Below are positions 10,483 to 57,199 of a stretch of 64,000 nucleotides of DNA, one piece after another. The DNA comes from Chryseobacterium cucumeris (GTDB lineage: Bacteria > Bacteroidota > Bacteroidia > Flavobacteriales > Weeksellaceae): positions 2,294,001 to 2,358,000 of the forward strand of contig NZ_CP068760.1 of the NCBI RefSeq assembly GCF_016775705.1. The letters run 5' to 3'. The stretch's first letter is position 1, and every line of letters begins with the position of its first letter. The translations under genes and the position numbers were made by a program. The notes beneath the pieces were generated by a model that saw nothing but the letters and a program-made list of their open reading frames with translations, did not search any database and was not told where the DNA came from.

Positions 10483-10486
10483 AGTG

Positions 10487-10518
10487 CAAAGATAATAGTT
10501 CAATGTTCAATGTTCAAA
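10487..10518 (-). promoter_or_regulatory. Promoter of the methyltransferase gene (TTTG-N20-TATCTTTG)
   Basis: On the minus strand TTTG (10518-10515) is followed after 20 nt by TATCTTTG (10494-10487), a full Bacteroidota promoter. The -33 element lies inside the first units of the heptamer repeat array, and the start codon follows the -7 box by 4 nt. Confidence 0.7.
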
Positions 10519-10651
10519 GTTTTTGGTTGAATGTTGCGGGTTTGCGAGGTACGGGTCACGAGTTTCGAGGTACAAGATTCGGTGTTCCTACAACCTTAAA
10601 CCTTAAACCTTAAACCTTAAACCTTAAACCTTGAACTTTAAATCCTTGCCT
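10498..10651. repeat. Heptamer-periodic intergenic array (about 21 units)
   Basis: Reading in 7-bp steps from 10498 gives GTTCAAT, GTTCAAT, GTTCAAA, then G-rich units (GTTGCGG, AGGTACG, GGTCACG, AGTTTCG), then five perfect TTAAACC units (10596-10630), TTGAACT and TTAAATC, all in one register. The right end touches the stop codon of the siderophore-interacting protein gene (10653). G-rich units lie at the left and C-containing units at the right, giving a loose inverted symmetry. Confidence 0.85.
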
Positions 10652-10652
10652 T

Positions 10653-15721: not shown

Positions 15722-15730
15722 GATTTTTTA

Positions 15731-15830
15731 GGGAATAGATTTCAGATATCAGATGGCAGACTTTCAACATTCAGCGTTAGCTTTCCATACGCATAATACC
15801 CGGCATCTGATATCTTTCATCTTTTAGTCT
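15731..15830. repeat. Heptamer-periodic element with inverted arms
   Basis: The left arm reads GATTTCA, GATATCA, GATGGCA, GACTTTC in 7-bp steps. The right arm reads CGGCATC, TGATATC, TTTCATC, TTTTAGT. The arms include a perfect 12-bp inverted repeat, AGATATCAGATG (15744-15755) against CATCTGATATCT (15804-15815), separated by 48 bp. The right arm runs into the HlyD-family stop codon (15824). Confidence 0.7.
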
Positions 15831-27605: not shown

Positions 27606-28016
27606 ATGATACACACAACACACTCAATACGAGTACGTTACGCAGAAACAGATCCAATGAAATACGTATACTACGGAAACTATGCAACGTACTTCGAAGT
27701 AGCGAGAGTTGAACTCTTCAGAAGCATAGGAATTTCATACGATGAAATTGAAAACCAAGGAATTTGGCTTCCCGTTTCGGACTACAAAATTAAATATATC
27801 CGCCCTGCTTTATATGATCAAAAATTAGAAATCCATACTTATGTTAAAAAAATTCCGGGGGTAAGGATTGAATTTGAATATGAAATTTACAATGAAGAGC
27901 ATATTAAAATAACAGAAGCTTCCACTACTCTATTCTTTTTAGATTCAAAAACTAATAAAGTAATCAGGTGTCCGGATTTTCTGATGGAACTGATTGAGAA
28001 GAACTGGAAAGGATAG
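27606..28016 (+). CDS. YbgC/FadM-family acyl-CoA thioesterase (4-HBT hotdog fold)
   Basis: The ~136-residue hotdog protein begins with HSIRVRYAETDPMKYVYYGNYATYFEVAR, where the Asp in AETD and the following tyrosines match the 4-hydroxybenzoyl-CoA thioesterase/YbgC signature (usually RYxETDxxGVVYHxNY). The usual H/N is replaced by YYGNY. It hydrolyses acyl-CoA or acyl-ACP thioesters; the substrate is uncertain. An ATG at 27585 in the same frame lies at the predicted transcription start, so the internal ATG at 27606 was chosen. A heptamer repeat begins one base after the stop codon. Confidence 0.85.
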   Translation: MIHTTHSIRVRYAETDPMKYVYYGNYATYFEVARVELFRSIGISYDEIENQGIWLPVSDYKIKYIRPALYDQKLEIHTYVKKIPGVRIEFEYEIYNEEHIKITEASTTLFFLDSKTNKVIRCPDFLMELIEKNWKG

Positions 28017-28227
28017 ATAGCAGGTAGTAGGTTGTAGGAATTAGGGAGATACCCGACGAAATATTGGGTAGAGGTTTTATAAAGGTGAAGGGTGAATTTT
28101 CAATAGAGTTAAAATATCTATCTCAAATTATCCGGTCACAAAATAAACCCGCAACTCGTAACCCGTAACTCGCAACTAAAAACATTACACTTTAAACTCT
28201 AAACTTTAAACTCTACACCCTCTCTGT
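28017..28227. repeat. Heptamer-periodic element, G-rich left and C-rich right arrays
   Basis: It starts immediately after the thioesterase stop codon with ATAGCAG, GTAGTAG, GTTGTAG, GAATTAG, and in the same register GGGTAGA, GGTTTTA, TAAAGGT, GAAGGGT (28066-28093). From 28151 a C-rich array follows: GCAACTC, GTAACCC, GTAACTC, GCAACTA, then TAAACTC/TAAACTT alternations to TACACCC (28220). The two halves have opposite strand composition. Confidence 0.8.
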
Positions 28228-28285
28228 TTATGAATTAATTCGCACCTTTGTACCATTATTTTAATCATCCCTTATATATTATATT

Positions 28286-39524: not shown

Positions 39525-39544
39525 AAAATATCAAGTATATTAAA

Positions 39545-39608
39545 AAATGAAAGATTTAAAAATTAAAGGTACTGGTTCACATTTAATCTTTAAATCTTTG
39601 AATTATAT
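39545..39608. repeat. Heptamer-like inverted repeat at a gene 3' end
   Basis: The left arm GAAAGATTTAAAAATTAAAG (39549-39568) pairs with the right arm around TTTAATCTTTAAATCTTTGAA (39582-39602). Both show the 7-bp step AAAGATT/TAAAGAT. The right arm ends a few bases from the stop codon of the HAD gene (39611). It is the AT-rich version of the element seen elsewhere. Confidence 0.6.
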
Positions 39609-39610
39609 TT

Positions 39611-43488: not shown

Positions 43489-43551
43489 GAGCAGGTTTCG
43501 GGATGCGAGATTGCAGGATTTAAGGTTTAAGGTTTTGGGAAACCAGTAACA
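43489..43551. repeat. Heptamer-periodic element after the thioesterase stop codon
   Basis: In 7-bp steps from 43489: GAGCAGG, TTTCGGG, ATGCGAG, ATTGCAG, GATTTAA, GGTTTAA, GGTTTTG, GGAAACC, AGTAACA. The first unit begins one base after the stop codon (43486-43488). Confidence 0.7.
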
Positions 43552-43572
43552 ACAAACGACCAATCACATGAT

Positions 43573-44412: not shown

Positions 44413-44434
44413 AGCTATGGTTATTTTTAAGTTT

Positions 44435-44482
44435 GGGCTAAAGCCAATGGGATTTAAAATTTATTTGGCTGGGCTAAAGCCC
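44435..44482. repeat. Paired GGGCTAAAGCC hairpin units
   Basis: GGGCTAAAGCC (44435-44445) and GGGCTAAAGCCC (44471-44482) are two near-identical small hairpins (GGGCT-AA-AGCCC) with similar flanks, 36 bp apart, between the GLPGLI gene and the riboswitch. Confidence 0.6.
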
Positions 44483-44506
44483 ACCCCTATTGAATTTTAA
44501 CAATAA

Positions 44507-44534
44507 GATCTTTTATCTTTTATCTTTTATCTTT
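44507..44534. repeat. Short 7-bp tandem repeat (TATCTTT)
   Basis: GATCTTT followed by three TATCTTT units in register, just upstream of the antiporter promoter. Confidence 0.75.
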
Positions 44535-44547
44535 TTACCATAATTCA

Positions 44548-44555
44548 TATATTTG
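44548..44555 (+). promoter_or_regulatory. -7 box of the fluoride riboswitch/antiporter transcript
   Basis: TATATTTG (TAnnTTTG) ends ~8 nt before the first base of the riboswitch stem, so the aptamer would begin within a few nucleotides of the transcription start. Confidence 0.7.
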
Positions 44556-44562
44556 CATCATC

Positions 44563-44618
44563 AAAAGGAAATGGTGTTCTTCCTTACCCAACCGCTTTAT
44601 AAAAGCTGATGACGCCTG
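44563..44618 (+). promoter_or_regulatory. Fluoride riboswitch (crcB motif)
   Basis: The aptamer can be drawn directly. P1 is AAGGA (44565-44569) with TCCTT. The P1 loop contains ATGGTGTTC, followed by CCCAACCGC. P2 is GCTTT-ATA-AAAGC. The 3' segment TGATGACGCC is typical of the motif. GGTGTT in the loop pairs with GACGCC to form the required pseudoknot. It precedes a CLC-F-type fluoride antiporter gene, the expected target. The last CC of the aptamer is shared with the downstream hairpin at 44615-44650. Confidence 0.9.
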
Positions 44619-44650
44619 ATTAAAAGATTATTAACAAATAACTAATCAGG
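44615..44650 (+). promoter_or_regulatory. Riboswitch expression platform hairpin
   Basis: CCTGATTA (44615-44622) pairs perfectly with TAATCAGG (44643-44650), which ends 6 nt before the ATG. The left arm reuses two Cs of the pseudoknot, so ligand binding and this hairpin compete. Translation would be the controlled step, with the ribosome landing region sequestered when fluoride is absent. Confidence 0.65.
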
Positions 44651-44656
44651 ATTATT

Positions 44657-45964: not shown

Positions 45965-45966
45965 GG

Positions 45967-46222
45967 GGTTTCGAGATGCGGGATGCGGGTTACGAGTTAC
46001 GGGATGCGGGGTGCGAAGTGCGGGGTCACAATTATTTGTTTATTTTGTTGCCGGATGCTGGTTTTTAATGGTTCTTTGTTCTTCTTCACTTATAATATCT
46101 CGAACCCAAAATCCCTCAAACTCAAAACCCCGAAACTCGCAACACGCATCTCATTACCCTCAAACCCTCCCACTCTCAAACTCTCAAGCTCTCTTCACCA
46201 TTTCCAACTATAATTCGTAATT
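45967..46222. repeat. Heptamer-periodic element, G-rich left array and C-rich right array
   Basis: The left array from 45967 reads GGTTTCG, AGATGCG, GGATGCG, GGTTACG, AGTTACG, GGATGCG, GGGTGCG, AAGTGCG, GGGTCAC, all in register with the pattern NNNTNCG. The right array (~46098-46200) is pyrimidine-rich with units such as CTCGAAC, CCCTCAA, ACTCAAA, AACTCGC, AACACGC, ATCTCAT. Its ACTCGCAACACGC part is complementary in type to the left array. Open frames here are by-products of the periodicity. Confidence 0.85.
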
Positions 46223-46229
46223 TTACCCC

Positions 46230-47105: not shown

Positions 47106-47108
47106 CAG

Positions 47109-47210
47109 GCAATAAGCAATAAGCAATAAGCAATAAGCAATAAGCAATAAGCAATAAGCAATAAGCAATAAGCAATAAGCAATAAGCAATAAGCAATAAG
47201 CAATAAGCAA
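47109..47210. repeat. 14 perfect copies of GCAATAA (7-bp tandem repeat)
   Basis: Units run from 47109 to 47206 without a mismatch, followed by the partial unit GCAA. The array begins 3 bp after the LysR stop codon and ends ~95 bp before the permease start. Perfect copies suggest recent expansion by slipped-strand replication and likely variation in copy number. Confidence 0.97.
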
Positions 47211-47304
47211 AGATATAACTTTTAGTTATCCGATATAACAAAATACGATTTACTTTGTAATACTTTATTTCGGACTTTTGATGCTCATTTTAAAAGTTCG
47301 CATT

Positions 47305-57050: not shown

Positions 57051-57052
57051 TG

Positions 57053-57199
57053 AAGTTCAAAGTTCAAAGTTCAAAGTTTAATGTTAGAGGTTTAGAAATT
57101 GAGTATTGTTGAACATGTGAATAGTTCTCCCTAATCCCTTTAATCTAATAGCTGCTACCTAACACCTAATATCTGCAACCTATAACCTGCAACCTAAAA
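57053..57199. repeat. Heptamer-periodic element in one register across an intergenic region
   Basis: In 7-bp steps from 57053: AAGTTCA three times, AAGTTTA, ATGTTAG, AGGTTTA, then AT-rich units. From 57130 it reads CCTAATC, CCTTTAA, TCTAATA, GCTGCTA, CCTAACA, CCTAATA, TCTGCAA, CCTATAA, CCTGCAA, CCTAAAA. All 21 units keep one register. The left half (AAGTTCA/ATGTTAG) is the reverse-complement type of the right half (TCTAACA-like). It fills the whole gap between two convergent genes (stop at 57050, stop at 57194). Confidence 0.88.

Follow-up and report, generated by a model that had tools for sequence, protein, structure and literature searches.

Tandem heptamers occur in cyanobacteria as the STRR heptanucleotides and long simple sequence repeats, for which slippage has been proposed, and the REP/BIME palindromes are extragenic, often near stop codons and of one conserved palindrome type. 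The arrays described here from Chryseobacterium resemble the STRRs in being tandem heptamers, although STRRs are not known to have inverted arms or to follow a gene-edge rule. They differ from REP/BIME elements in that the word families change between sites and in that the focal site, an intergenic region between convergent genes, does not fold.

The available text of Rehm et al. (2015, PMC4692102) describes arrays of the heptamers GGGNATC and GGGGA(C/T)T in Xanthomonas and Nostoc, with a function that was not established. These arrays form inverted pairs (70 in one Xanthomonas genome and 75 in another), lie with the sense strand near stop codons and the antisense strand near start codons, and are under-represented between divergent genes. 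As far as the same text goes, the Chryseobacterium arrays share their degenerate 7-nt tandem units, mostly intergenic location and variable length among relatives, as well as the inverted pairing, the sense-near-stop and antisense-near-start placement and the scarcity between divergent genes. A first-pass annotation of the DNA had proposed a new repeat class, with inverted arrays and stop-codon anchoring that lay outside known descriptions; neither proposal can be retained, as heptamer arrays with inverted pairs and a stop-codon preference were already described by Rehm et al. (2015, PMC4692102). In the text available, the arrays of Xanthomonas and Nostoc have one G-tract word type with G-quadruplex potential. 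What sets the present arrays apart is the many word families, the octamers, the small G-quadruplex potential (four G3 tracts in 2 of 101 arms, four G2 tracts in 19 of 101), the change of family at one orthologous site and the TAG codons beside G-rich arms. A single tandem pair of GGGNATC was found in the 1.66 Mb sampled here.

The second related system, in the part of MacGregor (2015, PMC4679880) that was available, consists of TAACTGA arrays in Beggiatoaceae, Cyanobacteria and five Bacteroidetes. These are also intergenic tandem heptamers, other heptamers are mixed with them in Elizabethkingia and Gramella, and close relatives may lack them. Unlike the present arrays they have one fixed word and lie, in the main genome of that study, mostly just upstream of start codons; tandem pairs of TAACTGA numbered zero both in 1.66 Mb here and in 80 related loci. 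In the accessible part of the SPADE survey intergenic heptamers are the most abundant of the tandem repeats and have no known function, heptamer satellites in bacteria are mentioned in the available text of PMC6749651, and the portion available of a study of Flavobacterium transcripts (PMC9723704) has no bearing on the arrays.

Materials and Methods

The window, the whole stretch of 64,000 nucleotides at positions 2,294,001–2,358,000 of a one-contig genome of 4.81 Mb, was combined with 80 further 20 kb stretches to give a genome sample of 1.664 Mb in total, about a third of the genome. The regular 60 kb grid held 78 of the 80 stretches; L041 and L042 were placed off the grid close to the window, where pattern matches had already been seen, so that density near the window is inflated and was not used. 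Genes were called with a simple in-house codon-score caller and 984 intergenic regions of at least 30 bp were taken. Periodicity was scored as a Dirichlet-multinomial log-likelihood ratio (LLR), with shuffled intergenic DNA as control; by these shuffles about one tenth of the period-7 segments and one seventh of the period-8 segments with LLR of at least 10 may be due to chance. Window sites were scored over the whole intergenic region around each earlier-named stretch, against 100 shuffles of that region.

Layout tests used 109 arms with a clear excess of G or C and LLR of at least 10.5, drawn from 148 segments with LLR of at least 10, and the rest were dropped. A genome contig search gave 106 loci related to the focal site, of which 80 were kept, all from Chryseobacterium, and counts across species overstate the evidence because related species and loci are not independent trials. 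Nine other gaps were scored in the focal loci, four of them shorter than 25 bp in all loci. Five relatives from the genus, with 400 kb syntenic with the window, provided a partial repeat of the genome-sample results. U-tailed hairpins were called with a simple in-house predictor.

Results

Excess of 7 and 8 bp Periodicity

With LLR of at least 12, the 984 intergenic regions of the 1.664 Mb sample contained 76 period-7 segments, compared with 7 and 2 in two shuffles, and 30 period-8 segments, compared with 1 and 2. The 7-bp periodicity that the first-pass annotation had read from the window is therefore in excess of shuffled intergenic DNA across the third of the genome that was scanned. At this threshold periods 4, 5, 6, 9, 10, 11, 12, 13, and 15 gave 13, 12, 15, 2, 5, 7, 9, 3, and 8 segments, respectively, with 0–8 in the shuffles; the excess was mild for periods 4, 6, 12, and 15, and the 2 segments of period 9 compare with 5 and 4 in shuffles. 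Lag-7 segments numbered 37 in 0.21 Mb of intergenic DNA and 4 in 1.44 Mb of coding DNA. At least one segment with LLR of at least 10 was present in 102 of the 984 intergenic regions, or about one in ten. By gene arrangement these were 73 of 665 codirectional, 17 of 156 convergent and 12 of 163 divergent regions, and divergent gaps were array-poor, with 0.24 per kb compared to 0.56 and 0.57 per kb for the other arrangements.

Arrays in the Window

Nine stretches of the window had been named as periodic (Table 1). Seven of these, with periods of 7 or 8 bp, scored above all 100 of their own shuffles, while those at 39545 and 43489 scored above 96. The region at 39525 has a steady length of 85–87 bp in six species, unlike arrays, and the counterparts of the weak array at 15722–15823 reach LLR 12.3–17.3 in five relatives. 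Arrays at 28017 and 45965 end near the start of a conserved stretch that is promoter-like by inference. At the first of these the stretch, TTTATGAATTAATTCGCACCTTTG, begins a few bases past the right arm and is kept in four of five relatives, and reading of its letters suggests a promoter. The region at 57053–57199 had been described as holding one register through 147 bp; it consists instead of two arrays that are built of different words and lie 30 bp apart.

A separate dispersed palindromic repeat of about 75–90 bp (TTTTGGCTAAAGCCAA ... GGGCTAAAGCCC ... CCTATTGA) is present at about 44430–44500 of the window and in L005, L041, L053, L055, L074, and L082, in intergenic DNA. The same repeat (TTTTGGCTAAAGCCAA to CCTATTGA), together with an (ATCTTTT)n array, occupies the site of this genome's (GCAATAA)n array in G029 and G095.

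Table 1. Array features of the window, with positions counted from its first letter.
Feature	Positions	Strand	Observation
Intergenic region	10483–10652		LLR 38.6, above all 100 shuffles
Left arm, GTTCAAT	10483–10536	+	LLR 18.6
Right arm, AACCTTA, 10 bp from stop codon	10587–10642	-	LLR 38.6
Weak array, GATTTCA/GATATCA, in region 15722–15823	15736–15786	unassigned	LLR 11.0, reached by 0 of 100 shuffles
Intergenic region	28017–28285		LLR 36.2, above all 100 shuffles
Left arm, GCAGGTA, after stop codon ending at 28016	28018–28048	+	LLR 13.5
Right arm, AACCCGC then AACTCTA	28144–28222	-	LLR 36.2
Intergenic region	39525–39610		LLR 7.3, period 8, reached by 4 of 100 shuffles
Short array, GATTTAA/GGTTTAA	43515–43539	+	LLR 10.3 (region 43489–43572), reached by 4 of 100 shuffles
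Intergenic region	44413–44656		LLR 16.6, above all 100 shuffles
(ATCTTTT)4 in region 44413–44656	44508–44535	-	Exact-run copies vary in six species
Intergenic region	45965–46229		LLR 46.5, above all 100 shuffles
Left arm, GGTTACG/GGATGCG words, 1 bp past stop codon	45966–46026	+	LLR 46.5
Two C-type octamer arrays (46099–46138, 46156–46193), heptamer words between	46099–46193	-	LLR 13.3 and 22.2
Intergenic region	47106–47304		LLR 105.8, above all 100 shuffles
(GCAATAA)14.6, 3 bp past stop codon	47109–47210	+	Present or absent by species
Focal intergenic region between two convergent stop codons, array-filled	57051–57193		LLR 26.7, above all 100 shuffles
Left arm, G-type AAGTTCA then GTTTAAT, 1 bp past stop TAG	57052–57094	+	LLR 19.7
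Right arm, C-type on + (ACCTGCA/ACCTAAC), ends at stop codon of minus-strand gene	57125–57193	-	LLR 26.7

Placement and Orientation at Gene Edges

The placement near stop codons that had been noted in the window was borne out in the genome sample, with a left stop codon no more than 10 bp away for 16 of 25 G-arms (random mean 1.8) and a right stop codon equally close for 15 of 25 C-arms (random mean 2.8). On the start-codon sides the same test gave 8 of 29 (random 3.3) and 7 of 30 (random 4.4), within the range of the random runs. The order of a G-rich half followed by a C-rich half was also confirmed; among 38 regions with several segments the order was G-then-C in 25 and C-then-G in 1, and the other 12 were of the same type or unskewed. 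In codirectional gaps the sense strand was G-type 25 times near the stop codon and 5 times near the start codon, while C-type arms were found 23 times near the start and 9 times near the stop (Fisher 1.4e-5). The rule in this genus is that at both edges of a gene the C-poor (G-rich) strand points outward in the 5' to 3' direction.

At stop edges of this genome 30 arms agreed with the rule and 6 were against it within 10 bp, and 12 and 11, respectively, lay beyond. At start edges the ratio was 18:0 within 40 bp, 14:1 at 41–100 bp and 6:5 beyond. In the five relatives it was 23:0 at stop edges within 10 bp, 12:7 beyond, and 17:0 at start edges over all distances. The fade with distance rests on few arms, and the 17 start-edge arms of the relatives, three of which are beyond 100 bp, all conform. 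In the 80 focal loci G-type arms were on the left in 27 cases and on the right in 3, and C-type arms on the left in 1 and on the right in 46. Ten oriented arms from samples of the family, order and class outside the genus gave 4 for the rule and 6 against, which is a small sample.

GC skew measured outward from stop codons was +0.40 and +0.38 at array edges and -0.02 and -0.03 at non-array edges. A general skew of gene edges was thereby rejected as the cause at stop codons, and since non-array stop edges are unskewed the polarity there belongs to the arrays. At start codons the skew was +0.28 and +0.33 at array edges and +0.11 at non-array edges. Start triplets in 21 arms occurred at 0.54 per 100 nt as oriented and 8.78 when flipped, compared with 3.8 in non-array leaders. 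Orientation at start edges would then be filtered because the opposite one would bring start triplets into the leader.

Back-up stop codons were considered as a separate candidate and rejected; one was found within 10 codons in 20 of 30 G-arm ends compared with 53% of 723 non-array ends, and in 18 of 30 when the arms were flipped. Stop triplets were not enriched in the array words, at 9.83 per 100 nt and 9.64 after column permutation.

Word Families

The unit had been thought to be different at each site. The families in fact recur, and among 86 oriented arms 81 pairs had at least three cyclic words in common, compared with 5–15 pairs after column permutation. The recurrent words include AAGCTGG, AAAGTTT/AAGGTTT, ACGGGTT, AGGTTGC/AGCAGGT, AAATGAT, and the octamer AGAGTTTG. 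Matches to the AAGCTGG-family pattern were found in 16 of 17 genomes of the genus, 9 of 13 others of the family and 8 of 116 others of the order, with one match for the reversed control. The AACCTTA-family pattern was matched in 9 of 17, 2 of 13, and 12 of 116 genomes of these groups, with a reversed control that is unclean at 14 of 146. In nine genomes outside the genus, sampled at 80–100 kb each, there were 0–4 period-7 segments with LLR of at least 10 (shuffles 0–1), and G191 had 7 period-8 segments.

The reversed AACCTTA control (TTCCAARTTYCAAATTCCAA) occurs up to 21 times per genome in family f2 (G154, G184, G293, G296, G308, G312, G319, G322, G332, and G336), and this family supplies most of the 14 genomes hit. 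The reversed pattern is probably a heptamer array in its own right, which makes the control unclean there, and a separate heptamer family is probably present. Arrays of the GGAAGCTG family lie near positions 128452, 971315, 1025444, and 1684635 of G250:C1 with an identical spacing of 364 bp, as if within a multi-copy element. Elements of the octamer AATGTAAC at L075:9865-9975 and L075:13304-13409 have a common REP-like stretch, ATGCTTCGACAAGCTCAGCATGAC, between the arms. The intergenic regions L039:10064-10839 and L074:4649-5396 have 91 bp of 99% identity outside the arrays and, with similar GC-rich blocks (near GAGGAGTATGAGCGGATAGCGGG) in L046 and L055, represent another dispersed repeat.

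The Focal Region and Turnover between Species

An array with LLR of at least 10 was present in the orthologous focal region of 38 of the 80 Chryseobacterium loci. The five other gaps of these loci that were long enough gave 0 of 79, 0 of 79, 2 of 80, 0 of 21, and 1 of 21. The type of the left arm differs by species (GGATTCG, GTTTAAG, GAGTTTGA, or GTTGCTG) and some species are arrayless, while the end of the adjoining gene, PEITLFEL(S/A/G)*, remains constant (67 of 80 loci parsed, 13 not). In the loci L115 and L190 gene B is 97% identical, yet the arrays are unrelated and of equal layout, a pattern that exchange between lineages by recombination would account for.

When six species were compared along the window, the length and family of array regions were seen to change, while most non-array regions hold their length. 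The longest exact run of (ATCTTTT)n was 4, 3, 13, 9, 0, and 1 copies in the six species, and that of (GCAATAA)n was 14, 0, 10, 0, 0, and 0. At the (GCAATAA)n site G069 has the 10 copies and four other relatives have none, with (ATCTTTT)n in the region in G029 and G095. Close pairs at the focal site differ by blocks of whole units. Slippage, which the first-pass annotation had offered as an alternative, fits these runs of variable copy number and whole-unit differences best.

In a loose test of array columns the fully conserved columns had threefold lower substitution, and in a strict test on 19 array pairs the counts from conserved to variable columns were 24/283, 39/340, and 25/170. Constraint on columns within the words was not relied on, as shifted units can imitate a conserved-column effect. 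Writing of the arrays by a telomerase-like or other reverse transcriptase was also rejected. A match to the reverse transcriptase model PF00078 is absent from 10 of 25 genomes of the genus, and of three such genomes whose focal site was examined, arrays are present in G015 and G019 but G014 has no clear array; a reverse transcriptase is therefore not needed, unless one was missed by the PF00078 model.

Stop Codons beside Arrays

G-arms that touch a stop codon were next to TAG in 11 of 30 cases, compared with 170 of 1345 genes of the sample (Fisher 6e-4), and all 15 touching arms of C-type or without skew were next to TAA. The focal site, where an edge was termed G-skewed from the 40 bases next to the stop codon and 76 of the 80 loci were usable, gave the same picture at both genes. 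Where the edge was G-skewed, gene A ended in TAG in 29 of 41 loci and gene B in 34 of 38; where it was not, the counts were 6 of 35 and 13 of 38, respectively. For 30 G-arms the stop codon matched the phase of the array at 0.347, and the 14 bases upstream of it gave 0.268 and 0.275; composition predicts about 0.27. In seven C-arms beside stop codons the 7 bases before the stop codon match the array at 0.351, somewhat above chance, so that a sharp edge at the stop codon is clear for G-arms only. The G-arms would thus extend into the final silent position of the stop codon and halt, like an otherwise neutral spreading sequence bounded by selection. A search of the heptamer/tandem-repeat, Chryseobacterium/Flavobacteri and terminator literature, largely outside subscription papers, found no description of the TAG shift or of multi-family arrays in Chryseobacterium.

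Folding of Paired Arms

The arrays had been proposed to fold as large imperfect hairpins, and this holds for part of them. In 17 of 27 genome pairs the own C-arm was among the six best of 27 partners for the G-arm, with a mean of -20.1 for own and -13.8 for swapped partners; the other 10 pairs, including the focal one, do not fit in this way. Folding of the focal region was on a par with that of its own shuffles (z -0.07), and a test for REP-like hairpins on eight regions of the window gave fold z of -1.66 to 0.71 compared to shuffles. Co-evolving hairpin arms were rejected for the focal site, where own arms outdid the average of swapped ones in only 19 of 35 species, with a small gain in mean energy (-26.1 compared to -23.9).

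Discussion

The reading that we consider somewhat better than even is that the arrays are a genome-wide class of slippage-grown, recombining 7–8 bp arrays that occupy unconstrained intergenic DNA as far as selection allows, with an orientation filtered by the neighboring gene. Arrays often start at the stop codon, and those read closely extend as far as the stop codon on the other side or a conserved stretch ahead of the next gene. They would arise and turn over through slippage or unequal exchange in steps of 7–8 bp and may spread between loci and strains by recombination. At gene ends they would claim the final silent position of the stop codon and halt where change would damage the gene, and selection from the neighboring gene would filter their orientation. 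Slippage alone does not account for the common words at unrelated loci, nor for the orientation at stop edges (30:6, and 23:0 in relatives).

An alternative that we regard as unlikely, though worth weighing, is that the arrays are two-way elements for transcription ending, or insulators, in which RNA leaving a gene would first pass through a C-poor arm, followed ahead of the next gene by an arm rich in C and poor in G on which Rho could load. The arrangement on the sense strand of codirectional gaps, with 25 of 30 G-arms near the stop codon and 23 of 32 C-arms near the next start codon, is as this reading predicts. The array sites had been said to lack U-tailed hairpins, and in the window such hairpins were called in 0 of 8 array regions and 18 of 25 others (Fisher 5e-4), an absence that could mean function. 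The statement is weaker in the genome sample, where 22 of 60 array regions have a hairpin. The deficit was found there between convergent genes (7 of 11 array regions compared with 110 of 116 others, Fisher 0.005), but the share between codirectional genes was little different (15 of 49 compared with 210 of 493, p 0.13), and all of these counts depend on the simple in-house predictor. At the focal site, leaving out 23 of 80 loci that were too long or short to score, species with an array had a predicted terminator in 9 of 33 cases, those with a weak array in 0 of 10 and those lacking an array in 2 of 14. As arrayless species have so few terminators the loss of the array is not compensated, and the array is not clearly a terminator substitute.

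It is improbable that the arrays are decayed inverted-repeat mobile elements, similar to MITEs, with ends made of heptamer arrays. Many arm pairs form stems, for example the GAAGCTG arms with a spacer of about 75–110 bp, and the equal 364 bp spacing of the GAAGCTG-family arrays at four places in G250 would be expected of such an element. Against this, the arms of 10 of 27 pairs have no special mutual fit, and arms often begin 0–1 bp past stop codons, which random insertion does not predict. Comparison of the masked spacers of 76 regions gave 75 hits and 12 when shuffled, but the best 25 of the 75 were mostly the separate palindromic repeat.

We consider it very doubtful that a strand-aware process, acting through enzymes or through selection, writes C-poor heptamers from the gene edge outward regardless of word or G-quadruplex potential, with the arrays as its fast-evolving product; the 4 arms for and 6 against the orientation rule outside the genus count against it. 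If two 3' ends facing each other across a gap were extended, the G-rich 3' polarity would point outward on either side, as it does here. G-quadruplex elements, the proposal made for Xanthomonas and Nostoc, are hardly credible in Chryseobacterium, as four G3 tracts are present in 2 of 101 arms and yet the arms generally obey the orientation rule, even though placement and strand preference are as in the available text of Rehm et al. (2015, PMC4692102) and a few arms such as 45966–46026 have GGG tracts.

With slippage-grown arrays bounded by selection as the preferred reading, the orientation and stop-codon rule is separated here from G-quadruplexes, and G-arms accompany a shift in the last silent base of the stop codon. 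If outward writing of heptamers were true, it would span three phyla together with the Xanthomonas and Nostoc arrays of Rehm et al., and would represent a common layer at gene ends that has been overlooked as filler. Since one site can be traced through 80 related loci with different families, the rule is freed from G-quadruplexes and the TAG shift accompanies the G-arms, the origin of the arrays as opposed to their function is directly testable in a culturable genus.
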